Shown piece after piece: positions 4,716 to 48,348 of a stretch of DNA of 48,348 nucleotides. Source of the stretch: Lachnospiraceae bacterium (GTDB taxonomy: Bacteria > Bacillota > Clostridia > Lachnospirales > Lachnospiraceae); the NCBI GenBank assembly GCA_017623295.1, contig JAGAPK010000065.1, positions 1 through 48,348 of the forward strand, given 5' to 3'. The translations under genes were made by a program, and so were the position numbers. The notes beneath the pieces are model-generated. The model worked only from the letters and a program-made list of their open reading frames with translations, did not search any database and had not been told where the DNA came from. The first letter of the stretch is position 1. Every line of letters starts with the position of its first letter.

Positions 4716-4765
4716 TCGAATAAGATTGTCAGAGAAATTTTTTCATCGAAAAAAGGAGAAGAACG

Positions 4766-10855: not shown

Positions 10856-10963
10856 ATGTTTTCTTGGCAAAATAAAAAATCAAGACGAATTATTTCATCG
10901 ATTATTATTATTTTACTGATTCTTGCAATGGTTGTACCGCTTATGGTAGCAACTATTGTTTAA
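10856..10963 (+). CDS. small single-span membrane peptide, 35 aa
   Basis: This short frame starts MFSWQNKKSRR and then has an uninterrupted hydrophobic span (residues 12-35, IISSIIIILLILAMVVPLMV...). The ribosome site GGGAGG (10841-10846) is nine bases before the ATG at 10856; another in-frame ATG at 10850 is too close to it. The basic N-terminus and hydrophobic tail predict one membrane helix with the N-terminus inside. It lies 61 bases before the VanW-family gene and may be co-transcribed with it. Function is unknown. The ribosome site and composition support real coding, but homologs were not checked. Confidence 0.55.
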   Translation: MFSWQNKKSRRIISSIIIILLILAMVVPLMVATIV

Positions 10964-11024
10964 CTAGAATTAAGTGTATCACATTTTCTCTGGGGAAGCA
11001 ACGAAACGGAGAGGAAGGAATGCT

Positions 11025-12599
11025 ATGATTAAGATGTGGAAGAAGTTGTCTGTTGTGACAGCATTATGCATCAGCATTTTCTCTTTTGGAATGACAGCAG
11101 AAGCAAAAGAGGATGAGAAAATTGAATCTGGTATTTACGTGAATGATATTAATCTTTCTGGCAAAACTGTGTCAGAAGCGAAGAAAGAAGTACAGACTTA
11201 TGTAGATTCTTTTGCAGATGCACAGATTACTTTTCATGCCATCGATGACCATGAAATTGTAACAACAGCATCGGAAATTGGTATGACCTGGGGCAACCCA
11301 GAGATTATTGAGGAGGCAGCAAGTCTCGGAAAAGATGGAAATATTGTACAGTGCTATAAGGCATTGAAAGATTTGGAATATGCAAATAAGGTATATAAAG
11401 TCAGCTTTGATTTTGATAAAGAAAAAATCAAAACATTGATTGAAGAACAGGGTACTCAGTATAATCAGGAAGCAATTAATGCAACTTTAACAAGAGTCAA
11501 TGATGAATTTCAGATTACCGAAGGTCAGACCGGTATTGTTGTTGATGCAGAGGCTTCTGCTGATTCTGTTTATGATTATCTTGTAAGCAACTGGAATGGT
11601 TCTGATTGTGAGATTGATTTAGTAGTAACGGTTGATGAGCCAGAGGGCAGCGTGGAAGAATTATCCAAGGTAAAAGATGTACTGGGAACTTTCACAACCA
11701 GTTTCTCTACTTCCGGTTCATCCAGAAGTGCTAATGTAACAAATGGTTGTCGATTGATTAACGGACGTACTTTGTATCCGGGTGAAGAGTTTTCTGCATA
11801 TGAAGCAGTAGCTCCTTTTACAGAAGCCAATGGCTACTATATGGCTGGTTCTTATTTGAACGGTCAGGTAGTAGATAGCTTAGGTGGCGGTATTTGTCAG
11901 GTTTCTACTACTTTATATAATGCTGTTTTGAATGCGGAACTGGAGGTTGTTGAGAGATACAACCATTCTATGATTGTTACCTATGTTGATCCTTCCGCAG
12001 ATGCTGCGATTGCAGAGTCTTCCGGCAAGGATTTTAAGTTTGTAAATAGTACAGATTATCCTATTTATATAGAAGGAATTACCACACCGGATAAGCAGAT
12101 TACTTTTACAATTTATGGTGTAGAAACAAGAGACAGCAACCGGGAGGTTCACTATGAAAGTGTTGTTTTGGAAAGAACAGCACCGGATACGGAAGTAATT
12201 TATACAGATGCAACACAGCCGGTAGGTTATTGTGTGGTGCAGTCTGCCCATATTGGATATAAGGCACAGCTTTGGAAGGTTGTAACCGTTGATGGGGTAG
12301 AAGTAAGTAGAGAACAGGTAAACAGCAGTGTATATAATAAGGCTCCAAGAAGTGCAACTGTTGGTATTGCAACAGCAGACCCTGCGGCTTATGAAGCGAT
12401 TATGGCAGCAGTAGCAACGAACAGTGTCGATCAGGTAAAAGCAGTGGCGGGAGCGTATAAAGCAGCGGCAGATGCAGCAGCAGCTCAGGCGGCAGCAGAA
12501 GCAGCGGCAGCGCAGCAACAGCAGACACCGGCACCAGAACAGCAACCGGCAGCACAGCCGGCACCAGCACCGGAACAACAACCGGTACCAGCACAATAA
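11025..12599 (+). CDS. secreted VanW-family protein with peptidoglycan-binding domain
   Basis: A 524-aa exported protein. Residues 1-28 are a Sec signal peptide (MIKMWKKL, hydrophobic core, cut near AEA). Residues about 30-220 resemble the YoaR-like putative peptidoglycan-binding domain. Residues about 235-370 are the VanW domain (FSTSGSSRSANV, NGRTLYPGEEFS, LGGGICQVSTTLYN). A G5-like/beta region follows, then a low-complexity tail of Ala, Gln and Pro (about residues 480-524) that probably spans the wall. VanW proteins are common in Firmicutes and their exact role is unsettled; presence does not imply vancomycin resistance. The start at 11025 has GAGGAAGG upstream. Confidence 0.9.
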   Translation: MIKMWKKLSVVTALCISIFSFGMTAEAKEDEKIESGIYVNDINLSGKTVSEAKKEVQTYVDSFADAQITFHAIDDHEIVTTASEIGMTWGNPEIIEEAASLGKDGNIVQCYKALKDLEYANKVYKVSFDFDKEKIKTLIEEQGTQYNQEAINATLTRVNDEFQITEGQTGIVVDAEASADSVYDYLVSNWNGSDCEIDLVVTVDEPEGSVEELSKVKDVLGTFTTSFSTSGSSRSANVTNGCRLINGRTLYPGEEFSAYEAVAPFTEANGYYMAGSYLNGQVVDSLGGGICQVSTTLYNAVLNAELEVVERYNHSMIVTYVDPSADAAIAESSGKDFKFVNSTDYPIYIEGITTPDKQITFTIYGVETRDSNREVHYESVVLERTAPDTEVIYTDATQPVGYCVVQSAHIGYKAQLWKVVTVDGVEVSREQVNSSVYNKAPRSATVGIATADPAAYEAIMAAVATNSVDQVKAVAGAYKAAADAAAAQAAAEAAAAQQQQTPAPEQQPAAQPAPAPEQQPVPAQ

Positions 12600-32977: not shown

Positions 32978-34483
32978 ATGCAGGTAGGAAGTAGTGTAAG
33001 CAACAGGTATTATACACCGTATCAGACGAATACGAGTGTAAAATACTGTGCAGGTTTTTCCAAGACAGAAGATGGAAAAATGACACCGAATGAAACAACG
33101 GAGAATCCGGGATTTGCTGAGTTTGTGGATTATCAGGAATTTCACAAGGCATGGATGTCCCAGGGAGCAGAAACAGCAATAGATTTTTTCCGCTTTGCAC
33201 CGAACGCTCCGGAGGAAATAAGACAGGCATTCACGGAGGCGGCAGCGGAAACAGGATATAACGAGGGCGAGAGAATGGATTATATCTCTCAAGTCCTTGT
33301 GCATCAGGTAGAGAATCGACAGAATGGTGTGGCAAATTACACGGATGTATTTGGCAGTTCCATAGCATCCGCCTTACAGGCAGCAAGAGAGATTCTGTAC
33401 GATTTGGAAAATCCTCTTATGCCGGTTAGCCAACGCGGAGAGAATGCTGCTAAGTACATAGAACAGGAAAAAGAATTTTACAGGTCATTCATTGAGAAAC
33501 TGGAAGGATTAGCAGGTGCGAGTGCTGCTGATACTGAGGAGCCGGCGGATTATGCGAAGTTTCTGGAAGAAAAGATGAACGAGATTTTTGTGAAAATCCA
33601 GAACGGTGACACGGAACCAACCTATCAAATTGGTGCACAGTCCTTCACAGAAAAAGAGTGGGAGGAGTTCCTTGATAAGTTTGATTCCGCCCAAGAGGCA
33701 ATTCAGGAGCTGATGAAGGAGGAACAGGCTAGAAAAGAGGCAGAAGAAGACAAAAAAGAAGGTATGGTTACTAATGATGCAAGTACTTTATTAACCACAG
33801 AATCCACTTCCTGTGTGTACGAGACTGCTGATCCGGAAGATGATGATTTACGTTATATCACATGGTATACCGAGAAAGGCATTTTCTGTAGAAAAGCCGG
33901 ACAGACCGAAGGGGACGAATGGGCGATTACTTTTGAAAATAAAGAACAGTACGACAAGGTAATGGAATTTATCGGACAGTTTCCTTCTGGCTGGAATATG
34001 CGTTTCGCAGCTCATGAGAATTTCTGGAATGATTTTCTGAATGATGAGATTGACATGGAAGGTTTTATGGAGTTTATCAATGGAACGAATAAAGGAGTGC
34101 CTGATTATTCCATCACGATAGGAGATTCCATGTATATTGACAAGGATAAAATGCAGTGGGCAAAATATACGAATCCGTTAGGAGCCAGATTCTACACAGC
34201 AGAGGAAATGCATCAGATGCAGATGGAGATAATCGCAGCCAATCAGGCAAAACTTACGAAGCTGACAGATTCCTATGGAGAAGTATATAAGCAAAATCAT
34301 CCTGATTATAACGGAGAACGAATTTTCTGCGAGTATCCGGGCGGACCGTTATATACTGCAGATGAGATTGGAAGGCTTATGTGGGAGCAATTTCTTGCTG
34401 ACATGAATATGACAGAAGAAGAGATGCAGCAGAAACGAGAGGAATGGATGGCTAATGTTGGTTATCCCGGATATGAAAGTTAA
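32978..34483 (+). CDS. unknown protein 2 of the cluster, 501 aa
   Basis: The largest gene of the cluster; I do not recognise its family. It starts MQVGSSVSNRYYTPYQ, similar to the start of unknown protein 6 (MQVNPTNLQQRYF). A coiled-coil or helical acidic segment (about 225-260, QEAIQELMKEEQARKEAEED) separates an N-terminal helical half from a C-terminal half rich in Trp, Tyr and Phe (FPSGWNMRFAAHENFWNDFL). There is no signal peptide, so any export would be non-classical. The ribosome site AAAGGAG is directly downstream of the structured leader. The next gene starts 16 bases after its stop. Confidence 0.7.
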   Translation: MQVGSSVSNRYYTPYQTNTSVKYCAGFSKTEDGKMTPNETTENPGFAEFVDYQEFHKAWMSQGAETAIDFFRFAPNAPEEIRQAFTEAAAETGYNEGERMDYISQVLVHQVENRQNGVANYTDVFGSSIASALQAAREILYDLENPLMPVSQRGENAAKYIEQEKEFYRSFIEKLEGLAGASAADTEEPADYAKFLEEKMNEIFVKIQNGDTEPTYQIGAQSFTEKEWEEFLDKFDSAQEAIQELMKEEQARKEAEEDKKEGMVTNDASTLLTTESTSCVYETADPEDDDLRYITWYTEKGIFCRKAGQTEGDEWAITFENKEQYDKVMEFIGQFPSGWNMRFAAHENFWNDFLNDEIDMEGFMEFINGTNKGVPDYSITIGDSMYIDKDKMQWAKYTNPLGARFYTAEEMHQMQMEIIAANQAKLTKLTDSYGEVYKQNHPDYNGERIFCEYPGGPLYTADEIGRLMWEQFLADMNMTEEEMQQKREEWMANVGYPGYES

Positions 34484-34499
34484 ACGAGAGGGTATGTTT

Positions 34500-35060
34500 A
34501 TGAGTATTCAGATTATAGATTATAACGGAGTAAGTCCGTATGCAAAAACAGATACTACTAATAAAGTACAGCAGGCAGGTGGAGATTTCCAAAATACGGT
34601 CATGAAATGTACCGGAACAACCACACAGAAAGCTGCCTTATATTCCGATGCTCTTATGTCCTATGCTAGCCCACAGACTGGAGAATCAGTAAATATATAT
34701 AAGGCAGAAAATTATTCAGAAGATAATCCTCTTTATGTTATGAGAGGACTGGATGCAAACGGAAATGAGTTTGAGGAGATGGTGGATGCAAGTACCATCA
34801 ACCTAAATAACTGTAGTTTTAATGAGTTGATGGTACTGAATGTGGAAACAGGGCAGACATCTCCCAGTGATTATCTGCGTGCAGTAGCTGTCCGGGCAAA
34901 TGCAGATGCCGACAGTTATTTTGAGGAAGCAGATTATATTGCCTATGCACAGGAGGTAATGGAGGATTACAAAACGCTGGGTAATTGGGATTCTTATCTG
35001 GCTATGGATAAATGGATACAGAGCTTGCTGGACTATACAGAGAAGGGAGAAGCATTATGA
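34500..35060 (+). CDS. unknown protein 3 of the cluster, 186 aa
   Basis: Unrecognised soluble protein. It begins MSIQIIDYNGVSPYAKTD; the N-terminal 60 residues look polar and extended, and the rest is mixed alpha/beta with an acidic C-terminal helix (AQEVMEDYKTLGNWDSYLA). The ATG at 34500 has GAGAGGG seven bases upstream; ATG 34494 is too close. Its stop overlaps the next start (ATGA), so it is translationally coupled to protein 4, which suggests the two act together. Confidence 0.65.
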   Translation: MSIQIIDYNGVSPYAKTDTTNKVQQAGGDFQNTVMKCTGTTTQKAALYSDALMSYASPQTGESVNIYKAENYSEDNPLYVMRGLDANGNEFEEMVDASTINLNNCSFNELMVLNVETGQTSPSDYLRAVAVRANADADSYFEEADYIAYAQEVMEDYKTLGNWDSYLAMDKWIQSLLDYTEKGEAL

Positions 35061-35929
35061 GTATGAAAATAGATGGATTACCTTCACAGTATAACGGATA
35101 TAAGGTTAATGTTGACAGAGCAAAACAGGAAATAGAAAAACAAAAAAATAGTAACATCAGTTTATGTGATCAGGCTGAAATATCTGGGGAAGGGAAAAAG
35201 GCTCTGGAAAACAGAATGTCAGCCTTAGCAGGAGAAAGACACATGGAGGATATCCGCCATCTTTCTTCTGTCAGTTCCTATGGTTACATAAGTGATTTCG
35301 AAAAGGCATTATCTGATTTTGGAAAAGGAAATGTTTCCGGCGAGTATGTAACCGGAGCTTATGAGGAAGCTATTGCGTATATTGCTTCTAAATTTGAAGA
35401 GGAAGATGGGGAAAAGACAGATTCCTTCGATCGTCATGTAAATAAAGCGGTGGCTGCATATAACATGATGCGGGACAGGATTGAGGCAAAGTATGCCGAT
35501 TCCCAAAGAGAAGCAGAATATTATGTTGCAGATCATGGAGAAATCGAAGAATTGACCAAAGAGAAAGAGTTGGAAATGCTCGATAAAGCCTATGCAAATC
35601 ATAGTACATTTATAGCAACCTCAACGCAAATTTGGGCAGATTTGCAGAGCTTTACACCAACAGTAGTATACCATAAAGGTGGCCAACAGTTTGATGAAGA
35701 GCAGGCTGTAGATATGAGCCGGAAGGAAAATACCGCAGAATATGGCGAAAAGGGAGAAATAAAGGATATGGTGTCGCAGGCATTTATGAATGCTGTCAGT
35801 GACGAGAACAGGATGTCGCTTTCGCAGCATGAAGGCAGTTTAAATCATTTTAAATTGAATTTAGGAATTTCAGTATCAGCAAGAGACAGGCTGAATGGTA
35901 TTTGGGACTATTATGCAAACCGAGAATAA
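35057..35929 (+). CDS. unknown protein 4 of the cluster, 290 aa
   Basis: Unrecognised soluble protein. Residues 38-46 read DQAEISGEG, the motif shared in this cluster, followed by KKALENRMSAL, which resembles the short motif seen near the start of some FlgM-type and flagellum-linked proteins. That resemblance is weak and not a family call. The remainder is mostly helical. The start at 35057 is coupled to gene 3. The next gene begins after 68 bases with its own ribosome site. Confidence 0.65.
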   Translation: MSMKIDGLPSQYNGYKVNVDRAKQEIEKQKNSNISLCDQAEISGEGKKALENRMSALAGERHMEDIRHLSSVSSYGYISDFEKALSDFGKGNVSGEYVTGAYEEAIAYIASKFEEEDGEKTDSFDRHVNKAVAAYNMMRDRIEAKYADSQREAEYYVADHGEIEELTKEKELEMLDKAYANHSTFIATSTQIWADLQSFTPTVVYHKGGQQFDEEQAVDMSRKENTAEYGEKGEIKDMVSQAFMNAVSDENRMSLSQHEGSLNHFKLNLGISVSARDRLNGIWDYYANRE

Positions 35930-35997
35930 AGGAGAGTTGTTCTTTTTAGAAGGTAACAAAGTTTTTTGCTGAATGAACGAAGTGTAAGGAGTCAATT

Positions 35998-36945
35998 ATG
36001 GTAAGGAACGTAGCAGATATTTATCAATCAGAACAGTACAGCTTAGCTGCACAGAAAGTGAAAAGAGCACAGGGAGCATTAAATATATTGTCAAACTCCG
36101 GGAAGAACGGACAAAGGGATATGCTGCATATTTCGGATACCGGCAGAACGTATTCCAAGGAGCATGTTGTGGCATTAGTAGATACGGCTGTCAATTTATC
36201 GACAAGTGATTTTTCTTTTTATTTTGATCATTACAATAATATGCCTGCTCTTTTGGAGGCTATAAACTTCAGTGAAGGTTTTGTGACTGACTCCTATAAT
36301 CCTGAATTAAGTGAGCTTGGTGTGTTGTCGTTTAAAATAGGGGGAGTCAGACAGTATATTCCAAACTATGCCATTCCGAAGATAAATGCCGGCATCCTCC
36401 CGACTATTTCTGCAAAGAATAATCAATTGATACTGGATAATAGGGGATATTACTGCTATACAGCAAAAAATGGGAAAAATTATACATGGACGGTTCATGA
36501 AGGTCATATAGGATGGGCGAAGTCCGAAAGTATGGCGGAAGCCGTGGGCGAGAACACGTCAGGCTACAATTACAGATGGGAAATGCACAGAGCCGGAGAT
36601 CTGCTTTCAAGGTTAGCAAAAGGAAGCAGTACCTATGGCTTTTCCAATGAGGAGCAGAAAGAGATTCTTGCCGGATTCGGCATTACAGAAGGACATTTCA
36701 CTATAGATGCCGGAGCCGGTACACATCATTATATGCTATTGGAAAATGGTGTTGTGATAGATATAGATAAACGAATGGAACTGATGAACAAAACAAATTG
36801 GCACAATCAAGGTTACCAGACTGGAGAAGTCATCAATGTATATGGCAAGGAATGTGTAATTGGCGAAGATGGTCATATTCAAGTATCAGCAGAGGATGGA
36901 TTTACGGATACGAAGATACAATATCCGGATGGAAAAACTTTATAA
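35998..36945 (+). CDS. unknown protein 5 of the cluster, 315 aa
   Basis: Unrecognised protein. The shared motif appears at residues 41-49 (DMLHISDTG). The C-terminal two thirds are rich in beta-type sequence, Tyr and Gly (YCYTAKNGKNYTWTVHEGHIG, AGAGTHHYMLLENGVVIDID), suggesting a beta domain. There is no signal peptide or membrane span. The ribosome site AAGGAG lies seven bases before the ATG. It is in line with the other unknown genes and likely in the same transcript. Confidence 0.65.
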   Translation: MVRNVADIYQSEQYSLAAQKVKRAQGALNILSNSGKNGQRDMLHISDTGRTYSKEHVVALVDTAVNLSTSDFSFYFDHYNNMPALLEAINFSEGFVTDSYNPELSELGVLSFKIGGVRQYIPNYAIPKINAGILPTISAKNNQLILDNRGYYCYTAKNGKNYTWTVHEGHIGWAKSESMAEAVGENTSGYNYRWEMHRAGDLLSRLAKGSSTYGFSNEEQKEILAGFGITEGHFTIDAGAGTHHYMLLENGVVIDIDKRMELMNKTNWHNQGYQTGEVINVYGKECVIGEDGHIQVSAEDGFTDTKIQYPDGKTL

Positions 36946-36973
36946 CAGTAAACTATTTTAAGGAAGTGAGAAT

Positions 36974-37573
36974 ATGCAGGTTAATCCGACAAACTTACAA
37001 CAACGTTATTTTTCCAGCACAGGAAGCATAGGCGGAATCCATCTGCCGGATTTTAACGATAAATATGTTTTCTCCAAAAAGAAAAGTGGCATCAGCGATG
37101 AAGAATATCGGAAGAAGATTGTAGAGCAGGCTTATAAGGATTTTGCGAAAGGACAATTCCAGAATAAATCAGAGGACTTTAATAGGCTGATGAAAAGCTA
37201 CACATCTGAGGTGTCGCCGGACAGAAAAGGAATCATTACCTCCGGTTTAAAAGCAATATCCAGAAACAGACAGGATGTATTAAAACCAATAGACTTCATT
37301 GCCACCTTATTGGAAGGGGAAGTAAAATATCAGAAGTTACCTTCCGGAAAAAGTGAGTACATAGAATTTTATGATAAGAATGGAGAAATGGTAGCAACAT
37401 ATTCTAACAACGGTTGGACTATGTATCCCACGAAGGCAGAAGCGGCGAGACAGACGGAAATGTGCATGATATACAATGAAGCATGGGGCAATGCAAAAAG
37501 AGGAGAGCCACTTGCATGTGGAGAAACTGCCGAGATGGATTGTTTGCAGAGCAGTTTTGATGCGAGGGCCTGA
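36974..37573 (+). CDS. unknown protein 6 of the cluster, 199 aa
   Basis: Unrecognised protein. It starts MQVNPTNLQQRYFSSTGSIG, echoing the start of unknown protein 2. Residues 60-95 are basic and helical (YKDFAKGQFQNKSEDFNRLM), and the C-terminal part has a beta hairpin-like segment (EYIEFYDKNGEMVATYSNNG). It starts 28 bases after gene 5 with AAGGAAG as ribosome site. No enzyme motif is visible. Confidence 0.65.
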   Translation: MQVNPTNLQQRYFSSTGSIGGIHLPDFNDKYVFSKKKSGISDEEYRKKIVEQAYKDFAKGQFQNKSEDFNRLMKSYTSEVSPDRKGIITSGLKAISRNRQDVLKPIDFIATLLEGEVKYQKLPSGKSEYIEFYDKNGEMVATYSNNGWTMYPTKAEAARQTEMCMIYNEAWGNAKRGEPLACGETAEMDCLQSSFDARA

Positions 37574-37621
37574 GAAATTAAACAGCGGTAAAGAATTTGA
37601 CACAGGGAAGGAAGCGTGAAC

Positions 37622-38728
37622 ATGTCAGTAACATCGGTTGGAAATAATGTAGTAGGAACAGATTATCAGCAGTATCAAAAATCGGATGAAGTTCTTTTCA
37701 AAACCTATTCTTATCAGGAGGGAAAGGAACAGGAAAAAGTATATTATAAAAAGGATTGTGTGGAACTTTCCCTTGAATCTTACATGATTCCTGCCACAGC
37801 AGATAACTATGAGGAAGTCAGAAGTATACTGAAGACACAGAGTGGTGGAAAGATTATCTCTCCGGGCAATCGGTTTTTTAGTGAAACTTATGAGATTATG
37901 CGAGATTATTATGATAAAAAAATCACTTGTGATGAAGTAAAGAATATTTTTAAGGAATATGTATATCACGCATTTGGCAGACCGGAAGAAACGCAGGATA
38001 ATGCAGAGACAGCGGATGAGGCAAAAGTAGTGGGTACTTCTATGAGTACCTATGAAAAGCAGCGTTTTACTGGATGGTTGTCAGGGCTGTATGAGTATTT
38101 CAGCAGGGCAAATACCAGAAATGCATGCACCAAAAATATGCAGGAAGGAAAGGCTTTGATAGAAGAAAACGGTATCAACTGGAATGGGACTTATTATTAT
38201 AATTCGGATTGGTACTATGCCTGTGAGGAGATGCAGAAGATGTTTCAAGAGACTGCAAATGAACTGACAGATGAATATGGAGCCGAACAGGTGGATTTTA
38301 CTTATGTGGAGCAACATACAAGATTTACGCTCGATGGGGGAATTACGTTCAATGGCGTATGGGATTCCATGGAATGGCAGATCAACCGTGACCGGGCAAT
38401 AGGCGGTAGCTTCCATGATGTAAACATGGCACCACCAGAAGATTTTGTATATTGCAGTAATGCTACATGGGATGGGGAAAATAATCTGGATAGTATCAAG
38501 GAATATTTTGAGAATGAGAGAAAAGAATCCCCTTTTATGATGTTCCTTTTGGCAGCAACGAAGAATACAGATGCAAAGGACAGTCTGTTACTTAATCAGG
38601 AAAATTATTTAGATTCCAGCGAATGGGAGGAAAACGCTACTTACCAGAGTACCATTTCCTTTTTGAAGAACTTTAATATTGCTTGGAATTTTAGAAGCAA
38701 CCGTTTTGAGTTTTTGAAAGAGGGATAG
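37622..38728 (+). CDS. unknown protein 7 of the cluster, 368 aa
   Basis: Unrecognised protein. A variant of the shared motif is at residues 45-53 (DCVELSLES). Aromatic-rich helices fill the middle (WLSGLYEYFSRANTRNACTK, WYYACEEMQKMFQETANEL), recalling the C-terminal half of protein 2. The start at 37622 has AAGGAAG upstream; the GTG at 37616 is in frame but overlaps that site. It is the last gene of the run. The 159 bases after it hold a MerR-type promoter. Confidence 0.65.
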   Translation: MSVTSVGNNVVGTDYQQYQKSDEVLFKTYSYQEGKEQEKVYYKKDCVELSLESYMIPATADNYEEVRSILKTQSGGKIISPGNRFFSETYEIMRDYYDKKITCDEVKNIFKEYVYHAFGRPEETQDNAETADEAKVVGTSMSTYEKQRFTGWLSGLYEYFSRANTRNACTKNMQEGKALIEENGINWNGTYYYNSDWYYACEEMQKMFQETANELTDEYGAEQVDFTYVEQHTRFTLDGGITFNGVWDSMEWQINRDRAIGGSFHDVNMAPPEDFVYCSNATWDGENNLDSIKEYFENERKESPFMMFLLAATKNTDAKDSLLLNQENYLDSSEWEENATYQSTISFLKNFNIAWNFRSNRFEFLKEG

Positions 38729-38887: not shown

Positions 38888-39727
38888 ATGAAAACGGTAA
38901 AAGAAATATCAAAAATAACCGGAATCAGTATTAGGACGTTGCGTTATTATGACGAGATTGGTCTCCTGAAACCTGCCAAAGTGACAGAAGCCGGATATCG
39001 CCTCTATGATGAACAGGAACTGGAGAAATTGCAGGAAATTTTATTCTACAAAGAGGTAGAAATCCCGCTGGCTGAGATTAAGAAAATCATGGAGAATCCG
39101 GAGTACGACAAGCAGAAAGCTTTGGCAGTACAGAAATCACTTCTGGAGCGTAAGCGCAATCGTCTGAATGGAATCATTGAGTTGATTGATGACGTAAGGA
39201 AGGGAGTAAATACCATGAGTTTTAGTGCTTTTACGCAAGAGGATGTAAAGAAGATTATTGACCATAGTTTGGAAGTGCAAAGTCAGGAGTCGTTGGATGC
39301 CATTATAGAGCAATTAGGCAGTTTGGAAAATTATCGGGCTTCCATGGAGGAAAACCTAAAGAATGAGAGCAGAACTGCAAAACTGATTAAGATTTATGGC
39401 AGTAAAGATAAGGCAGTAGATGCAAGCTTGGCAGCTACAGGGAATTTGGATGAACAGCAGCAAATTCAAAGTGAAATAGACAATATCTATAAGCGGTTTG
39501 CCATAGCAATGGAGAAACAGGATGCTGATATGGAAGCAGAATGTGTTGGGAAACTGGCCGAGGGTTACAAAAAACTCTTACGGTTAGATAATGCTAGATA
39601 TGTTTTGCTCAAGACCGCAGATGATTATCTCGGCAATGGTGTACTAACAAAAGCGACAGATAAGCAGTATGGACAAGGAGTAACGAAATACATTGGAGAA
39701 GGTATTAAACGCTACTATGGTGTATAA
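38888..39727 (+). CDS. MerR-family regulator with TipAS-like C-terminal domain
   Basis: A 279-aa regulator. The N-terminal winged HTH (residues 1-70) reads KEISKITGISIRTLRYYDEIGLLKP, then EAGYRLYDEQELEKLQEIL, the standard MerR pattern. A dimerisation coiled coil follows (about 75-115). The C-terminal 150 residues resemble TipAS, the domain of TipA-type regulators that binds thiopeptide and other hydrophobic drugs. An effector such as a peptide antibiotic is likely by family. It has a strong ribosome site (GGAAGGAGG). It follows the unknown cluster but has its own promoter. A terminator follows. Confidence 0.9.
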   Translation: MKTVKEISKITGISIRTLRYYDEIGLLKPAKVTEAGYRLYDEQELEKLQEILFYKEVEIPLAEIKKIMENPEYDKQKALAVQKSLLERKRNRLNGIIELIDDVRKGVNTMSFSAFTQEDVKKIIDHSLEVQSQESLDAIIEQLGSLENYRASMEENLKNESRTAKLIKIYGSKDKAVDASLAATGNLDEQQQIQSEIDNIYKRFAIAMEKQDADMEAECVGKLAEGYKKLLRLDNARYVLLKTADDYLGNGVLTKATDKQYGQGVTKYIGEGIKRYYGV

Positions 39728-39802: not shown

Positions 39803-39885
39803 CACGTTATAGGGAAATGATTGCAGATTTCTAGAGAAAACATGGGATATACGCAGGAAGTGTTTGCGGGAACCCTAGATGTAGG

Positions 39886-41323
39886 GACAGAGATTTATGC
39901 CGATGATGGAAAAAGTGCAACCAACACCAAAAAGCGTGATGATTTCAATGCCATGATAAAGGATGCACTGGATGGAAAAATCGACATGATACTGACAAAG
40001 TCGGTGAGCCGATTTGCCAGAAATACAGTAGATTCCCTGCTGACCATTCGAAAGCTAAAGGAAAAGAATGTAGCAGTGGTTTTTGAAAAAGAGGGTGTCA
40101 ACACCTTAGACGGAACCGGGGAAATCCTGATTACCATCTTAAGCAGTCTGGCACAGGAAGAGAGCCGCAACATCAGTGAGAATACCAGATGGGGCGTGGT
40201 TCGAAGATTTGAAAATGGCAAGATGATTGTCAACCACAATAAATTCATGGGATACACCAAAAACGAAAATGGAGATCTGGTCATCGTACCGGAGGAGGCA
40301 GAAATCGTAAGGCTAATTTTCAGGCTTTATCTGGAAGGCTACAGTGCCGGAAAAATCAGCAAATATCTGGAGAGCATAAAATTAAAACTGCCACGGGACA
40401 GGATAAGTGGCACGACACGGTAGTTCTGAAAAAGCTCCGAAATGAGAAATACATGGGAGATGCCCTGCTACAAAAGACTTATACCGTAGACTTTATGACA
40501 AAGAAAAAGGTTATGAATAAGGGGGATTGTGCCACAGTATTATGTAGAAGATGACCATGAGGCAATCATCCCCAAGGAACTATTTTACAGGGTGCAGGAA
40601 GAAATGACGAGAAGGGCAGCCATGAATAAGGCAGCAGTAACGAGGAAGAAAAATCAAAAGAGTAAATTTTCCTCAGAATATGCACTTACCGGTTTACTGC
40701 TCTGCGGAGAATGCGGACAGGAATACAGAAGAGTCACATGGTCGAGGAATGGCAAAAAAAAGATTGTGTGGAGGTGCAGTAACCGACTGACAAACGGAAC
40801 CAAGAACTGCAAGAAATCCGAGACACTGGAAGAGGGAGCATTGAACAGGGCAGTCATGTCAGCAATTAACCGTATCACCTGTAATGACGGAGATTTTGTG
40901 GGAGCATTCAGACAGAATGTCATCCGGGTAATCGGAAGCTACGGTTCAGAGCAGGAGCCGGACGAATACGATGATAAAATCAAAGCCAAGCAGGAAGAGA
41001 TGGTAGCACTGATTGCAGAAAATGCAAAAGAGGGTTCCTACACCGATGAGTTCGATGAGAGATACCGAAAGATTGCAGAGGAAATCACCACTTTAAAAGA
41101 GAAGCAAATAGAGGCCAGACGTAAGAAAAAACTGGCTGATAATTATGAACAGCGGCTTAAGGATATGGACAATTTCCTACAGAGCCAGACCTATAACATA
41201 CCGGAATTTGACAATGACCTTGTCAGAAGGCTGATAAGCAGTATCAAAGTAGTCTCTGCCGAGAAGCTGATAATCCAGTTCCAGTCGGGAATCGTCATGG
41301 AGCAGGAAATCAGTTATGACTAA
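39886..41323 (+). pseudogene. truncated and frameshifted large serine recombinase
   Basis: Fragments of a large serine recombinase (TnpX/Tn5397-like) remain. IYADDGKSATNTKKRDDF starts near 39894; the N-terminal start with the catalytic Ser (usually YCRVST) is missing. LTKSVSRFARN and EESRNISENTRWGV are recognisable. The frame breaks near 40390-40410, where sequence continues in another frame (KWHDTVVLKKLRNEKYMGD). It shifts again near 40524 in a run of five Gs and resumes as PQYYVEDDHEAIIP. The zinc ribbon (CGECGQEYRRV...C) and coiled coil then follow intact to 41323. It cannot make active integrase. It marks the left side of the defence region. Confidence 0.88.
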
Positions 41324-41407
41324 GTGACAGGCAGGGATGACAATTGAATAGGGAACGGAATTCCTGCCTGTAAAATAAATCCGTAGGATTTATGGTAAGA
41401 ATAAAAT

Positions 41408-41429
41408 GCTCGATGGGTTCGGGCTTTTT
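41408..41429 (+). terminator. intrinsic terminator after the recombinase remnant
   Basis: GCTCGA (41408-41413) pairs with TCGGGC (41419-41424) with one G-T wobble, a five-base loop and five Ts. Just upstream, ACAGGCAGG (41327-41335) and CCTGCCTGT (41363-41371) form a perfect 9-bp inverted repeat, and AAATCC-GTA-GGATTT is a third small hairpin. Confidence 0.65.
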
Positions 41430-41463
41430 ATTGTTGGCATAAATTAATAATGAGATATTTGGA

Positions 41464-41492
41464 TTGGAGTTATATATAATTTGTTGTATAAT
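41464..41492 (+). promoter_or_regulatory. promoter of the defence operon
   Basis: TTGGAG (41464-41469), a 17-base spacer and TATAAT (41487-41492). The -10 is perfect. It lies 50 bases before the first gene of the defence block and after a terminator, so the block is an independent unit. Confidence 0.65.
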
Positions 41493-41542: not shown

Positions 41543-42793
41543 ATGGCACAGTTTAGAATAAAAACTAGTAAAAATGAAGTATTATGCCCAAGCGAAATGG
41601 AGAAGCATGAAAAGAAATCATTATTTGATAAATGCAAAGATGAAAAACTGAAACTTTTTTGCAATTGTAATGGGGCTTGTGAATATAAAGTGCGTAATGG
41701 AAATTGGGCAATATATCCATGTAGTCAAGGAAAACAGGCAGAACACGAGGATTGGTGCCCGAAATCGAAAGTATACTTAGATAAACGTGATTATAATGCT
41801 GGATTTTTGATTGATGATGAGACAGAGGAGGTCCGGGTGCATTTGTCAGAACCACTAATGCCTCGGGAGCAAAACGATGATGAACCAAATGAAAATGGGC
41901 CAAATGAGAATGTTCCACGAAATCATGATGGGGGAGGCAGAAGATATCCTCGGCATCAGCAAGGAGAAATTACGATTTCTGCTATGATCAAAAAGATGAA
42001 TATGCTTACATTTAAGCATGTTGCATTTTACAAAGGAAATAATGAGACAGTGTACCCCAAAACGAATGTAATGATTAAGAAAATGTTTTGGGCGGAAAAG
42101 AGGACAAGAATAGGAACTAAGAAAAAGAGTATTGCTGATTTAGACCGTCTAAAAGATGGTCTGGAATTTGTATATAAAGAATTAGCAGAGATACCTACAT
42201 ATAAAGCAGATGATAGGATTACACGTCTAATAATAAAAGAAGAGAAAGATGGTAAGGCGTTAACAGTTCCGGTTTATACACAAGAGTTGATTAGGGCACT
42301 TGAGGAGTACGAAAATACTTATGCGACTGATGACCTATCAAATAGGAATATTATTTTAGCAGGATTTCGAGATAGGTACGCAATGTATAGCTTAAGATTT
42401 CTTTTAGTAAACGATTATGGGTTGTTTTCTGAGAGTAATTATGAAGTGCAGATGTATAATGCCATTTGTGAAATAATGAACCGAAATAGATTCAAGGAAA
42501 AAGGTGTGTTCTTTTATAAGCCTTTTGAGTATGGATATGGTGCCTATGGGGACAAATATTTGGAAGATGGTATTATCGAATTTGAAGGGACAAATAAAAA
42601 AATAGTTATAGAAGTTTATGGTAGAAATGATGAGGATTATTTAGAGAGAAAAGATATTAAGTCCCAAATGCTTTCCAGGAAAGATAATATATATATTTAT
42701 ATTCCATGGGAGGCATATAATAATGAGCCATTACCATATAAGAGAATTTGTACTGAAATCGAAGGGGTATTAAAGGATGTAAATTCTCAATGA
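41543..42793 (+). CDS. putative zinc-binding protein with PD-(D/E)XK-like nuclease domain
   Basis: A 416-aa protein that I cannot name. An N-terminal cluster Cys40, Cys42, Cys46, Cys60, His68 and Cys72 (FCNCNGACEY ... AEHEDWCPKS) looks like a metal site and resembles the start of plasmid-borne DUF1173 proteins. Residues 105-140 are a disordered Asn/Glu/Pro-rich linker. The C-terminal 120 residues have a restriction-nuclease-like pattern: a helix with Glu301, then Asp342 (EDGIIEF) and Glu357 in IVIEVYG, as in VSR-like folds. The usual Lys is not obvious. It lies 44 bases before qatA on the same strand behind its own promoter, so it may be an added component of the Qat system. Confidence 0.6.
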   Translation: MAQFRIKTSKNEVLCPSEMEKHEKKSLFDKCKDEKLKLFCNCNGACEYKVRNGNWAIYPCSQGKQAEHEDWCPKSKVYLDKRDYNAGFLIDDETEEVRVHLSEPLMPREQNDDEPNENGPNENVPRNHDGGGRRYPRHQQGEITISAMIKKMNMLTFKHVAFYKGNNETVYPKTNVMIKKMFWAEKRTRIGTKKKSIADLDRLKDGLEFVYKELAEIPTYKADDRITRLIIKEEKDGKALTVPVYTQELIRALEEYENTYATDDLSNRNIILAGFRDRYAMYSLRFLLVNDYGLFSESNYEVQMYNAICEIMNRNRFKEKGVFFYKPFEYGYGAYGDKYLEDGIIEFEGTNKKIVIEVYGRNDEDYLERKDIKSQMLSRKDNIYIYIPWEAYNNEPLPYKRICTEIEGVLKDVNSQ

Positions 42794-42837
42794 GTGTTTA
42801 AAGAAAGTGAGAAAAGATTAGTGGAGGAGCTAGAAAG

Positions 42838-44715
42838 ATGATTTTATCTGATAATGAAACCAAAGTCGATTTACTTAATAATGAGGCGATAGCAAAAACA
42901 ATAGTTTCTCTTATTAAAGATAGTAAAGAGCAACCAATTTCTATCGGTATTCACGGGGACTGGGGAGCGGGCAAATCTAGTATTCTTGAAATGGTAGAAA
43001 ATGAAGTAACGACATCTGCTGCAGAGTCAGGTAAAAAGTATGCATGTATTCGATTTAATGGTTGGAAGCATCAAGGATTTGAAGATTCCAAAGTTGCTTT
43101 AATGAGTTCTATTATTTCAGAGCTTGAAAAAAAAGAAAAACTTGGTGTGAAGGCTGGAGAAATATTAAAAAAACTGTGGGGAAATATAAATTGGATGAGT
43201 ATAGCCAAGACTGCCGGAAAAACAGCATTGGGACTTGCTACAGGTACAGCACCTCTTACATTACTATCTTCAACGATGGATATTTTGAAAGCGACGGTAA
43301 CCACCGAAGAAGGAATTGCTGGGGCAATTGAGTCTATTGGTGGCTATTTAAAAGATGCCAACATTACGGAAGATACATCAAGTAATAAACAATTTTCTGA
43401 ATTTCAGGATAATTTTAATGAATTGTTAGAGGATGCATCTATTGAAAAACTTGTTGTATTAATTGACGATTTGGATAGATGTTTACCAGATGTGGCAATC
43501 AATACATTAGAAGCAGTAAGATTGTTTATGTTTACAGAAAAAACAGCGTTTGTAATTGCAGCAGATGAAAGTATGATACGTTATGCAGTCAAAAAGCATT
43601 TTCCTGATGCAATTGATGAAAATAAACTTAATACGGGAGATGCTTTTGCAAATAGATATTTAGAGAAATTAATTCAGATTCCATTTAGAATTCCTGCGTT
43701 AGGTGAGGTGGAGGCTTGTATATACATAATGCTACTTATGGTAGGTTCGGTTTTTGCTGATGAAAATCCCAATTATAAAAAGCTGAGAGAAGAAGGATTA
43801 TCAAGAATTAGGAAGCCGTGGAATGTAGAAAGTCTCACAGTTGACGATGTAAAAGGGCTTCTTGGAACTGATTATGAGAAAGCTGCAAATGAAGTATTGA
43901 TTGCGACACAAATATGCCATTTGTTAGCACAGAATACAGATGGAAATCCAAGGAAGATAAAACGGTTTGTAAACATGTTGCTGTTACGTTATGAAATTGC
44001 GAAGAATCGTGGGTTTGGAGATGAACTGGAACTTGCAATTTTAGCAAAGATGATGCTGGCAGAATATTATGAAACAGATTTTTATAAAGAATTAACTAAT
44101 CATTTGGATTCAGAAGGAAAATGGGGAGAAATCCCGGAAATACTTTCTGATATTCAAAAAATGGTCGAAGACAAGGAAGCAGTGGAATCAAAAGAGCGTT
44201 GGTATGATTTAAATAAGATTGGGGAATGGCTTATTACGGAACCGGAAATTACTGACAAAGACTTGAGACCATATTATTATGCTTGCAAAGAAAAGATTGA
44301 TTACTTTTCAGGTAAATCTTCTCAAAATGATTTATCAGAAGTTGTTGATTTGCTTTTTAGAGATGAAATGACGATTGTTGGACATATTGAGGATTTGCAA
44401 AACTTGACAAGTCAAGAATCTGACCAAGTGTTTGATGTTGTTGTTCAAAAAATCATGGAAAGAGGTCAATTTGATACGAAACCGAAGGGAACAGATGGTT
44501 TAATTATATTGGTACAGAATAAACCTGAACTTCGGAAAAGTTTGGTAAATTTTATAGATGCTATTCCTGTTTCTAATGTTGGTGTGTGGATTATACATGG
44601 ATGGGATAAAGCTATTCCGAAGGACTGTGAAGAAAGAAAGACTTTAAATCAATATTTTGACAAACTTAAAAGTAGCGGTACATCAGTTGTTAAGGCTGCT
44701 TTAAAAAAGATGTGA
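42838..44715 (+). CDS. qatA: QatA: KAP-family P-loop ATPase of the QatABCD anti-phage system
   Basis: A 625-aa NTPase. Walker A is HGDWGAGKSS (residues 39-48) and Walker B is LVVLIDDLDR (205-214), both typical of KAP NTPases. FNGWKHQGFE after Walker A is another KAP hallmark. A hydrophobic stretch (about 126-150) might contact membranes. The C-terminal 250 residues are helical. In Qat defence the ATPase is essential and probably senses infection or powers the complex, but the mechanism is not settled. The ribosome site GGAGG precedes the ATG. qatB starts 11 bases after the stop. Confidence 0.92.
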   Translation: MILSDNETKVDLLNNEAIAKTIVSLIKDSKEQPISIGIHGDWGAGKSSILEMVENEVTTSAAESGKKYACIRFNGWKHQGFEDSKVALMSSIISELEKKEKLGVKAGEILKKLWGNINWMSIAKTAGKTALGLATGTAPLTLLSSTMDILKATVTTEEGIAGAIESIGGYLKDANITEDTSSNKQFSEFQDNFNELLEDASIEKLVVLIDDLDRCLPDVAINTLEAVRLFMFTEKTAFVIAADESMIRYAVKKHFPDAIDENKLNTGDAFANRYLEKLIQIPFRIPALGEVEACIYIMLLMVGSVFADENPNYKKLREEGLSRIRKPWNVESLTVDDVKGLLGTDYEKAANEVLIATQICHLLAQNTDGNPRKIKRFVNMLLLRYEIAKNRGFGDELELAILAKMMLAEYYETDFYKELTNHLDSEGKWGEIPEILSDIQKMVEDKEAVESKERWYDLNKIGEWLITEPEITDKDLRPYYYACKEKIDYFSGKSSQNDLSEVVDLLFRDEMTIVGHIEDLQNLTSQESDQVFDVVVQKIMERGQFDTKPKGTDGLIILVQNKPELRKSLVNFIDAIPVSNVGVWIIHGWDKAIPKDCEERKTLNQYFDKLKSSGTSVVKAALKKM

Positions 44716-44726
44716 GGTGATTGATA

Positions 44727-45545
44727 ATGGGAACATCAACACATAATGGAGGACAAAAAGGAGGAACACCGCTAGTACCATCATGGTTACAGGAACCTGA
44801 TGAAAATATGCAAAATGAAACGCCTCAAGGTGTCAATGGTAATCAAATTCCACCGACAGGTGATGCGGATCGTTTTACAGCACCACGTGGTGAATTTACA
44901 AGATATATAAATTCTGGTGGACGGGATAGCAGTTTAGGGCGGAAAAGTGTTTCTAATTACATAAGAAATTCTTTAGGTGGTAGTTCAAATGCAACGCAAA
45001 GAATGGGAGCAGCCAGAAGCAGTACAGCGAGATTGTTAAATATTGCGGGTGCATTTGCTTCAGGCGGAGCAAGAGCTGTCGAGCAATATCTTTCTATTGA
45101 AAACCTTTCCCATAAGACTGCAAGTGATGCATTTATTGCTATTACTGATTTTGTTTGTCCGGATGGAGGACCACAAGATGAAGGCATTGCGCGGTCAGCA
45201 TATATTTCTGCAATAGAAGAATCACCAGAGATAGCTACAATTAAATTTGAGGATTTGACCTCTGAACAGATTATGGTAATTGTGGAACGTACTATGGCAA
45301 ATGCTATATTTAGTAGAATTACGAATGATATTGGAAATAAGATTATTTTGTTGCCACAGGATAGGGCTACATCGGACAGTATAATAGTTCAAATGAAAGA
45401 CTTTGTTAAAGGTTCTGTATCTGATGCGGTAGCCAATCTGAACATACAGACAGGGAATATTCGACAGGGAGATTCGCTAAGAATAGTAAATCAAGTGTAT
45501 AAGGAAGCATTTGATATTATGGTAAGTGCAGGTGAAAATGAATGA
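44727..45545 (+). CDS. qatB: QatB protein of the QatABCD anti-phage system
   Basis: A 272-aa protein with no known enzyme motif. It begins Met-Gly-Thr and has a Gly/Pro-rich disordered N-terminal 60 residues; the remainder is helical (LLNIAGAFASGGARAVEQYL, EQIMVIVERTMANAIF). The ATG at 44727 with GAGGTGA upstream is chosen; TTG 44721 is in frame but weak. Removal of Met would leave an N-terminal Gly. QueC-like proteins in other defence systems attach a deazaguanine to such a glycine, so QatC may modify this protein; that is inference here. It overlaps qatC by four bases. Confidence 0.88.
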   Translation: MGTSTHNGGQKGGTPLVPSWLQEPDENMQNETPQGVNGNQIPPTGDADRFTAPRGEFTRYINSGGRDSSLGRKSVSNYIRNSLGGSSNATQRMGAARSSTARLLNIAGAFASGGARAVEQYLSIENLSHKTASDAFIAITDFVCPDGGPQDEGIARSAYISAIEESPEIATIKFEDLTSEQIMVIVERTMANAIFSRITNDIGNKIILLPQDRATSDSIIVQMKDFVKGSVSDAVANLNIQTGNIRQGDSLRIVNQVYKEAFDIMVSAGENE

Positions 45546-46903
45546 ATCGATATAGGTTAAGAGCAAATTATGAAATTCAGAATATAGAGTCAAGGAGAGA
45601 GAATGGCACAGTTATTGTTGATGTACCTATGCTATCTGTGGGTGAATTAAACTATGGATTAAACCATGTTAAGGAGAAATTATATAAAGAAAATGTATAT
45701 CCCACTGAAATCGGGTTTGATATTATGTCGCTGGCAACAATGGTTTATTTGGCAGATACACGAATTGAGAGAGTGGTACATGGACAAGACTCTTGGTCGA
45801 GAGAAATAGAATTAGAGATACCGGTATCAAATGTAGAATTGTGGGAAACACAGATTTATACGGTTGAACGTATGCTTAAATTTCTTACAGGCGATTTATG
45901 GAAAATTACATTGTCAAGTAGAATGTGGCAGTTTAGTAAACCGGACGAAATAGGAGAAAAATCAAATAAATATGATGAAGTATCATTGTTCTCAGGAGGA
46001 ATGGATAGTCTTATAAGTACTATTAATTTAATGGAAGACAAGAAAAATACCTTGCTGATAAGTCATGCAGGTGAAGGACTTACAAAAAATGCGCAAAAAA
46101 ATATTGTGGACAAATTTGAACTGCTATATCCAGATGTATTACATACTTGGCTCGACTTGTGGATGGTATTTCCAAATAATTACATTCCGGAAGGTGGTAA
46201 TGATAATAATACAAGAAGTAGATCGTTTCTTTTTATTGGTTATGCGATTTTTGTAATGTCTGGTATGGATAATATTAGTGAATTGTTGGTCCCTGAAAAT
46301 GGTCTAATTGCATTGAATGTGCCATTAGATGAAACAAGGGTAGGTTCGTTTAGTACGAGAACAACACATCCGTTTTATCTTTTTTTATGGAATGAGTTAC
46401 TGCAGGGATTAGGACTATGTATGTCAGTGAAAAATCCTTATTGGAATAAAACCAAGGGAGAAATGGCAGCGGAATGTAAAAATAGTGATGTGCTGTATGA
46501 GACTATGAAGTTATCGTTTTCATGTTCATCACCAGGAAAAGCAAGATGGAAAAAACTTAGTCCGCAACATTGTGGGTATTGTGTTCCTTGTCTAATTAGA
46601 CGAGCAGCGATGTATAAAGCTTTTGGTAGTGATGGAACTGTATATACCGAGACATCTATTCATGAAATGCAAAGTAAAAATTCAGAAGGAATGGGAATCC
46701 AATTGCGTTCTTTCCAGTATGCAATTGATAAAATAAAGCAGGATAGTAATCGTGCTTTGTTCTATATACATAAGCCGGGACCATTACCGCAAGATGATGA
46801 ATATTTGCGGGAATTGGCTGATATATATGTGAGAGGTTTATTGGAAGTAGATAATTTTATACAGAATAATTTAGCTGAAGAGGGTAGTAACAATGATTTA
46901 TGA
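45542..46903 (+). CDS. qatC: QatC: QueC-like PP-loop protein of the QatABCD system
   Basis: A 453-aa protein. The PP-loop ATP-binding motif is SGGMDS (151-156). The zinc site is Cys328-x15-Cys344-x2-Cys347-x2-Cys350 (CGYCVPC), as in QueC. It is much longer than ordinary QueC (about 230 aa) because of an added N-terminal domain (1-140). No queD, queE or queF genes are nearby, so it is not for queuosine synthesis. QueC homologs act on 7-carboxy-7-deazaguanine; in defence systems they can link such a base to protein. It overlaps qatB (ATGA) and qatD (11 bases). Confidence 0.92.
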   Translation: MNRYRLRANYEIQNIESRRENGTVIVDVPMLSVGELNYGLNHVKEKLYKENVYPTEIGFDIMSLATMVYLADTRIERVVHGQDSWSREIELEIPVSNVELWETQIYTVERMLKFLTGDLWKITLSSRMWQFSKPDEIGEKSNKYDEVSLFSGGMDSLISTINLMEDKKNTLLISHAGEGLTKNAQKNIVDKFELLYPDVLHTWLDLWMVFPNNYIPEGGNDNNTRSRSFLFIGYAIFVMSGMDNISELLVPENGLIALNVPLDETRVGSFSTRTTHPFYLFLWNELLQGLGLCMSVKNPYWNKTKGEMAAECKNSDVLYETMKLSFSCSSPGKARWKKLSPQHCGYCVPCLIRRAAMYKAFGSDGTVYTETSIHEMQSKNSEGMGIQLRSFQYAIDKIKQDSNRALFYIHKPGPLPQDDEYLRELADIYVRGLLEVDNFIQNNLAEEGSNNDL

Positions 46904-47627
46904 TGCACATTGTCATTTGGATTTAATGGACAACATGGCAGGATTTATAAAAGAGATGCAAAATTCTGATATGAGCCTATTTGCAGTTGGTACTACCCCC
47001 AAGGCATATGATAGAGAAATACAGTTTTGCAGAAATAATCCTCGTATTAAAGTTGGATTAGGGATGCATCCACAATTAATTTCTAGCGGCTATGATGATA
47101 TGAAATTGTTTAAGACATTATTTGAAAAAAGTCACTATATTGGCGAAGTAGGCTTGGATTTTAGTAAAGAATATATTCAGACAAAAGAAGTGCAAGTGCA
47201 AGTATTTCGTGATATTGTCAAGTTGTGTGAACAGTGTGGAGAAAAAGTGGTTTCTGTTCATTCTCTTAAGTCGGCAAATACAGTTATTGAAATTCTGAGA
47301 GAATACAGAACACAAAGAAGTAATAAATATATCTTACACTGGTTTACGGGTACAATACCACAGCTAGAGAAAGCAATAGAATTAGGGTGCTATTTTTCGA
47401 TTAATCCAAGTATGTTAAAAACAAAATCAGGAATGGAGATAATAAATACTGTACCGGTTGAACGCATGTTGTTGGAGACAGATGCACCATTTACATTCAA
47501 AGTTCAGCATGTTGAAGAAATAGAAAAAGAGCTTAAGAGAGCCACATTAAAAATATCAGAGATAATTAAAATAGACATGACAGATGGATTTTATGAAAAT
47601 TCAAGAGCTGTGTTTAGATATCAATAG
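46893..47627 (+). CDS. qatD: QatD: TatD-like metal-dependent hydrolase of the QatABCD system
   Basis: A 244-aa TIM-barrel hydrolase. All TatD metal residues are present: His6-x-His8 (DAHCHLD), Glu85 (IGEVGLDF), His123 (VVSVHSLKS), His149 (ILHWFTG) and Asp197 (LETDAPF). TatD enzymes cut DNA, so this is the likely effector or nuclease of the system. It ends the operon. The gene starts inside qatC with AGAGGG upstream, so translation is coupled. Confidence 0.93.
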   Translation: MIYDAHCHLDLMDNMAGFIKEMQNSDMSLFAVGTTPKAYDREIQFCRNNPRIKVGLGMHPQLISSGYDDMKLFKTLFEKSHYIGEVGLDFSKEYIQTKEVQVQVFRDIVKLCEQCGEKVVSVHSLKSANTVIEILREYRTQRSNKYILHWFTGTIPQLEKAIELGCYFSINPSMLKTKSGMEIINTVPVERMLLETDAPFTFKVQHVEEIEKELKRATLKISEIIKIDMTDGFYENSRAVFRYQ

Positions 47628-47776: not shown

Positions 47777-48348
47777 ATGCGGTTTAGTGATATAAAAGTA
47801 GGATACATTTATAATGTAATTTTTGATCCGGTTCGGGATTGTGAGTTTGATGGCAAGCATTTGGCAGTGGTATTAAAGAGGAATAACGATAAAGCAACAT
47901 TTATTGTCATGCCACTTACGAGTGCACCTAATGGAGTCGGTGTGAATAAAATAAAATTAGGAGCGATGAATAGTTTACCGTCTTCGTTAAAATCTAATGA
48001 TACATACGCAGTATACAATCAGGTTCGAACAGTTAATGCTGATAGATTTATTGCTTTAAAAGAAGGCAGTGCAGTAAAGGAATGTCAGATGGAAAAGCAT
48101 ATTTTCCATAAACTATTATTTTTAGGTCTCCGAGAGATGGTATATAGTATTCCGCAAGATGAAAGGATTGAAATCTTAAAGTCTGCTTATGAAGCTGAGT
48201 TAATCTTAAAGGCAAAAGATATGGCTTATCAAATTGTAAAATTAAGGAAAGAGGAAATTCCCGATAAAAAGCAAATTGATGAATTTTTAGTACAGATTAA
48301 CGAAACAATAAAAGGTGTAACATATTCTTTGGATAAGCAGCTTGTTAA
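47777..48348 (+). CDS. PemK/MazF-like protein, 3' end outside the window
   Basis: At least 190 aa are visible and the frame is open at the right edge. Residues 1-100 match the PemK/MazF fold pattern: KVGYIYNVIFDP, then EFDGKHLAVVLKR, FIVMPLTSAPNG and DTYAVYNQVRTVNADRF. MazF toxins are RNases that cleave single-stranded mRNA at short motifs. Members are normally 110-120 aa; this protein has a helical extension of at least 70 residues, which might supply an antitoxin-like or partner-binding part. No antitoxin gene is visible upstream. The ATG at 47777 has GGGAGA upstream. Confidence 0.72.
   Translation, partial: MRFSDIKVGYIYNVIFDPVRDCEFDGKHLAVVLKRNNDKATFIVMPLTSAPNGVGVNKIKLGAMNSLPSSLKSNDTYAVYNQVRTVNADRFIALKEGSAVKECQMEKHIFHKLLFLGLREMVYSIPQDERIEILKSAYEAELILKAKDMAYQIVKLRKEEIPDKKQIDEFLVQINETIKGVTYSLDKQLV

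Follow-up and report, generated by a model that had tools for sequence, protein, structure and literature searches.

The QatABCD anti-phage system, reportedly first described in 2020, comprises a KAP-family ATPase (QatA), QatB, the QueC-like QatC and the TatD-family nuclease QatD. According to PMC13279940, the MGTS motif of QatB is essential and QatBC forms the core of the system; QatBC alone is enough against some phages, and QatA and QatD alter the phage range. DUF1173 proteins (PF06666) surfaced in the literature that we searched only in one paper, as a CRISPR spacer target. Here we describe a qatABCD operon of a Lachnospiraceae bacterium, on a window of 48,348 bp that is the entire contig C13 (JAGAPK010000065.1), one of 74 in an assembly totalling 2.78 Mb. 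It differs from the described four-gene system by a DUF1173-like gene, hereafter gene X, lying 44 bp upstream of qatA. As judged from sequence, the locus is a known defence system plus an undescribed accessory gene that is exchangeable and nuclease-like. No fifth gene is named in the QatABCD literature searched (titles and abstract starts, with subscription papers and preprints outside it), nor in the accessible part of PMC13329287. With somewhat more confidence than doubt, we read the locus as qatABCD plus an exchangeable accessory X, a PD-(D/E)XK-type nuclease belonging to mobile defence cargo.

One indication that X is exchangeable is a second contig of the same assembly (L037, 8.1 kb), which bears a qatABCD operon without X, separated by 257 bp from the end of an upstream recombinase gene. 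Its QatA, QatB, QatC and QatD share 94.4, 92.7, 91.4 and 87.2% protein identity, respectively, with those of the window. DNA similarity between the two runs up to window position 41449 and returns from 42822, the interval being 1372 bp in the window, where it holds X, versus 131 bp in L037. Over their final 141 bases (window 48208–48348, L037 7981–8121) the two contigs are identical, with nine mismatches in the preceding 259, which suggests a merge in the assembly graph; the two operons may be paralogues or strain variants. A second Qat system in this genome was considered as a firm fact and rejected, since both contigs share these exact last 141 bases.

Relatives of X were found at four loci in genome contigs, namely L002 (uncultured Ruminococcus), L003 (Clostridium porci), L004 and L005 (the last two from uncultured Lachnospiraceae), by a scan that relies on exact 8-residue patterns when given a single protein, so that distant relatives would escape it, and on a single contig of a viral collection (L006). 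Four of the six copies (window, L002, L003 and L004) lie directly 5′ of qatA, all with the 44-bp gap, and the L006 contig ends inside X, its neighbour not visible. The L005 copy, on a 7.3-kb contig, occurs without qat; here X begins within the 3′ end of an rloB-like gene (PF13707, 7.2e-26). This is the likeness to RloB-linked loci. The difference is that it comes from one contig of a metagenome-assembled genome, that the rloB-like open reading frame (ORF) starts at model position 51 and by eye appears frameshifted near base 100, and that the contig start is too near to show rloA. In L003, qatA and qatD are each frameshifted, and in-frame stops interrupt qatA and, at codon 336, qatC, although sequencing error is possible for all three; X and qatB are intact. 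Every qat gene of L002 and L004 aligns as one piece.

These contexts bear on the possibility that X functions as a lineage-specific part of this Qat subtype, for example an effector or specificity factor that works with QatBC or QatA and widens the phage range. Adjacency in four of six copies, the constant gap and a shared candidate promoter speak for it, and range modules are plausible given the contributions of QatA and QatD described in PMC13279940. We nevertheless consider it unlikely, because a near-identical operon lacks X, X stands without qat in L005 and is intact in L003 despite three broken qat genes, and no X match occurs at three other qat loci of Clostridia whose upstream sequence can be seen (L039 and L040, a near-identical pair, and L041); L038, which shows just 390 bp upstream of qatA, and L042, which is cut, are uninformative on the presence of X. 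Since a near-identical operon does without X and one copy neighbours a defence-type gene of another kind, X seems to be a swappable add-on; a core role in Qat is not supported, X being neither in all closely related qat loci nor, in the single case of L005, restricted to them. The first-pass annotation of this DNA had supposed that recurrence next to qatA would mark X as an undescribed Qat component or a co-inherited defence gene. Recurrence holds literally, in copies that are close relatives of one moved cassette (91–98% DNA identity) and not independent recruitments; the first option is not supported by the loci above, and the second fits best of the two.

The operon and its surroundings are arranged as follows.

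39821–41323, + strand: decayed serine recombinase, in two ORFs (39821–40423 and 40529–41323)
41389–41445, no strand: conserved, near-palindromic, terminator-like element, here called the recombinase tail
41464–41492, + strand: candidate promoter, TTGGAG-N17-TATAAT
41543–42793, + strand: gene X, 416 amino acids, with an N-terminal Cys/His cluster, a linker and, at the C-terminus, a PD-(D/E)XK-like domain that is related to DUF1173
42838–44715, + strand: qatA, KAP-family ATPase, 625 amino acids
44727–45545, + strand: qatB, 272 amino acids, MGTS N-terminus, start at ATG 44727
45542–46903, + strand: qatC, QueC-like, 453 amino acids, with FSGGMDS, STRTT and Cys motifs aligned to 9zee_B
46893–47627, + strand: qatD, TatD-family nuclease, 244 amino acids
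47778–48348, + strand: PemK/MazF-like gene, truncated by the contig end and assigned through its L037 homologue only (PemK, 2.9e-07)

By family, the qat genes form a standard qatABCD anti-phage operon, complete and entirely on the + strand (42838–47627), for which phage protection is predicted here. All four proteins exceed the NCBIfam equivalog cut-offs: QatA scores 730 bits with NF041923 (cut-off 600), QatB 194 bits with NF041924 (100), QatC 498 bits with NF041925 (280) and QatD 259 bits with NF041926 (230); the PADLOC Qat models match all four as well. QatC residues 20–442 align to the solved QatC 9zee_B, the motifs FSGGMDS and STRTT and the cysteine cluster of the zinc site being kept, and QatB aligns from residue 1 (MGTS) to the solved QatB 9vll_A. 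We therefore place the qatB start at ATG 44727 and not at TTG 44721, as MGTS then begins at residue 1, as in 9vll_A. QatA gave no match at 1e-10 in the phage collection and none at 1e-3 among solved structures. The locus thus shares with described Qat systems the gene order, four families above the NCBI cut-offs, the QatB MGTS start and the QatC active-site motifs. Apart from the qatB start, the first-pass annotation of a complete QatABCD layout is borne out by the cut-offs, PADLOC and the structure alignments; the five ORFs lie where it had put them, including a 416-residue gene in the same orientation that ends 44 bases before the qatA ATG.

That annotation had also placed all five genes behind one promoter, which is plausible but less secure. 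In its favour, the TTGGAG and TATAAT hexamers and their spacing are the same in all five X loci having the upstream region, but 91% conservation extends over that region as a whole. A terminator-like dyad separates the recombinase from the candidate promoter. No terminator-like site was found in the gap between X and qatA; one is located inside X (42139–42165). A promoter scan gave eight sites against 7.4 expected, with the candidate not among them; it was discarded as evidence, its count equalling chance. X is probably co-transcribed with qat.

X is a real protein under purifying selection, as dN/dS (the ratio of nonsynonymous to synonymous substitution rates) is 0.088–0.178 across the 15 pairs of six copies. 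Residues C40, C42, C46, C60, H68 and C72 are invariant in all six, so that the Cys/His cluster noted in the first pass is real. The C-terminal part carries the motifs LEDGII (340–345), IVIEVYG (354–360) and YLERKDIK (366–373), which we take to be of the PD-(D/E)XK type; the nuclease-like residues D342, E357, K370 and K373 are identical in the five full-length copies. A PD-(D/E)XK-like C-terminus, likewise proposed at first pass, is supported only through its motif and through profile comparison. An alternative, that X has a regulatory or anti-defence role and adjusts the expression of qat or shields the incoming element, might be imagined from the promoter-proximal position of X, in place of the 131-bp leader of L037, and from a Cys/His module that could bind nucleic acid. 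The constancy of the four nuclease-like residues and the retention of X where qat is broken make this very improbable.

Database searches with X returned nothing significant in Pfam, PADLOC, NCBIfam or PHROGs (PHROG 19012 came nearest, with an E value of 0.014), a best E of 0.33 among solved structures, and no match at 1e-3 in phages or plasmids. At 1e-3 only its own genome matched among 299 genomes of the family and 392 of the order, and only the genome of L003 among 60 of the L003 family. When E values as high as 0.1 were allowed, 341 genomes of the class yielded its own genome and six weak matches (E 0.0019–0.056); these genome samples overlap. Two of the six were opened and rejected as unrelated by eye, being a sensor-kinase-like and a lipoprotein-like protein.

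A relationship to DUF1173 was first suggested by the CxC...H...C start of DUF1173 proteins. In plasmids at E 10, X matched 103 records, and the 30 listed are all annotated as DUF1173, each at E 7. As such matches are not significant alone, profile tests with column shuffles were run on nine aligned DUF1173 proteins, hand-chosen for spread among the 60 rows listed for a DUF1173 query of plasmids or, in the case of L070, among the plasmid matches of X. Over its whole length, X matched the nine with a probability of 40.9 and an E value of 2.8e-4 over 329 colinear columns; the score of 37.8 exceeded all 200 column shuffles (maximum 27.6) and that of the reversed alignment (15.7). Three gammaproteobacterial members bear the C-terminal motif D...(I/M)EV(F/Y)G...Y-L-x-R-K-x2-K that X shares; against these three, which like the column ranges of the split profiles were chosen after seeing the alignment and the first profile results, the probability rose to 90.7 for whole X and to 95.2 for its C-terminal part (score 49.7, shuffle maximum 18.5), with none of 100 shuffles reaching either value. 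The C-terminal part against all nine gave a probability of 53.3, again reached by none of 100 shuffles. The N-terminal Cys/His part was marginal (probability 4.5, score 20.0, shuffle maximum 18.9). The profiles thus indicate that the C-terminal domain of X is common to the motif-bearing branch of DUF1173, and the N-terminal cluster is perhaps shared with that branch too. Length is a further likeness, the 416 residues of X comparing with 396–434 in the nine. By the Pfam model, X is not a PF06666 member, and a genome search with that model missed it, giving only E 0.38 at another place. In 199 genomes of the phylum the model matched nothing, but its controls gave no match either, which makes that search uninformative.

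We found that the cassette of X and qat shares 91.3–97.9% DNA identity among the window, L002, L003 and L004, versus 72.8–83.6% for rpoB fragments of five hosts (DNA identities only, aligned lengths 943–2116), and the cassette therefore moves horizontally. It is also mosaic, with L002 and L004 97–100% identical across qat; over the first half of X their identity is 87%, and the window and L002 share 97–98% there. A recombinase remnant or gene stands beside X in the window, L002, L003, L004 and L006. The window recombinase is decayed, with homology only from residue 71 of 546 (39893–41320) and a split into two ORFs. Recombinase-tail DNA (41250–41449) matched nine of the 299 family genomes, its own included, five of them by at most 36 bases, and cargo was viewed at four places in three genomes. 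AbiEi and AbiEii lie directly behind the tail in G031. In G054 the tail is followed by an unassigned 143-residue ORF, then by a gene with PDC-S64 and DUF3644 matches and, at a greater distance, by a large NPHP3_N/NACHT-like ATPase, and one contig of G273 carries a ParE toxin behind it. From these few cases, we suggest that the position behind the tail is one for defence cargo. The tail dyad recurs in L004 (two copies, 9663–9708 and 9849–9903) and in L005 (2366–2413, 3′ of X); such extra or displaced dyads are possibly footprints of repeated cassette joining. An attachment site was considered for the tail and is not claimed, as the element reads equally well as a two-way terminator.

The mobile setting would also suit a passenger with housekeeping or transfer-related duties on the mobile element, like the DUF1173 proteins of conjugative plasmids, with no part in defence. 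A DUF1173 query matched 3441 plasmid records, of which 2533 are typed conjugative, and the recurrent recombinase beside X agrees with such a role. The neighbours of X identified in the near flanks of its relatives are, however, recombinase, qat and rloB-like genes, and defence- or toxin-type genes follow the same tail at three of the four places opened, so that we regard a mere passenger as improbable. X differs from the DUF1173 proteins common on conjugative plasmids in adjoining defence-type genes in Clostridia.

Several points weigh against X as an exchangeable nuclease of defence cargo. X is next to qat in four of the five determinable contexts, which could mean a true partnership, and the copy without X may be a strain variant. 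The likeness to DUF1173 is confined to part of the family: against the six motif-less members alone X stays at chance level (probability 0.3, score 17.3), and the catalytic-looking motif is absent from those six of the nine aligned. The middle region of X does not match the DUF1173 profile, with a score of 9.0 that 95 of 100 shuffles reached. The Pfam DUF1173 model gave no match to three pieces of X or to the whole L005 protein at E up to 10, nor to the whole window protein at E up to 1. Finally, a second G273 contig (L094), read by eye, has the tail without clear defence cargo.

We nonetheless favour X as such an accessory nuclease, and speculate on how it could act. X would have been added at the promoter-proximal end of a standard qatABCD operon as a separate, exchangeable gene, encoding a metal-binding nuclease of the PD-(D/E)XK type that has DUF1173 proteins as distant relatives. 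Its N-terminal Cys/His module may bind or recognise a target that the C-terminal domain cuts, and X, co-transcribed with qat, could thereby add its own nucleolytic arm against invading DNA, in a cassette that would travel among gut Clostridia as cargo following a serine recombinase. We infer that X binds metal, recognises a target, cleaves DNA, is co-transcribed with qat and acts against phages. A broader proposal, which we offer tentatively and rather doubt, would make X an undescribed exchangeable nuclease module on unrelated defence operons (Qat and RloB-linked), with the plasmid DUF1173 proteins as related plasmid-borne defence nucleases of unrecognised function. The natural occurrence of qatABCD both preceded by X and lacking it, in operons about 90% identical in DNA, provides a clean test of an accessory gene widening the Qat phage range, and the link to X would supply a first functional hypothesis for DUF1173.

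The place immediately 5′ of qatA may serve more generally to hold accessory genes. Nine plasmid qat loci were inspected out of 104 records that matched, and they differ in what precedes qatA: a poly-gamma-glutamate hydrolase-like gene (L044) and a RES-domain gene (L050) overlap qatA, 24 bp separate it from the end of a DUF3883 gene in L049, and in the remaining loci the neighbour lies at least 75 bp away. No DUF1173 annotation precedes qatA in the nine loci as shown, for which the plasmid gene tables are incomplete. At the Clostridia loci without an X match, a gene pair resembling by eye the AbiEi/AbiEii of L091 lies 0.5–0.6 kb 5′ of qat (L039, 3129–4549; L040, reverse complement, 3849–5269), and two same-strand genes, the first nucleotidyltransferase-like by eye, directly follow qatD in L041 (reverse complement, 10893–12405). 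Elsewhere in the window, six consecutive + strand ORFs of 501, 201, 305, 315, 199 and 370 residues, without a Pfam match at 1e-3, occupy positions 32978–38728, and a MerR/TipAS-type regulator at 38888–39727 lies directly 5′ of the decayed recombinase.

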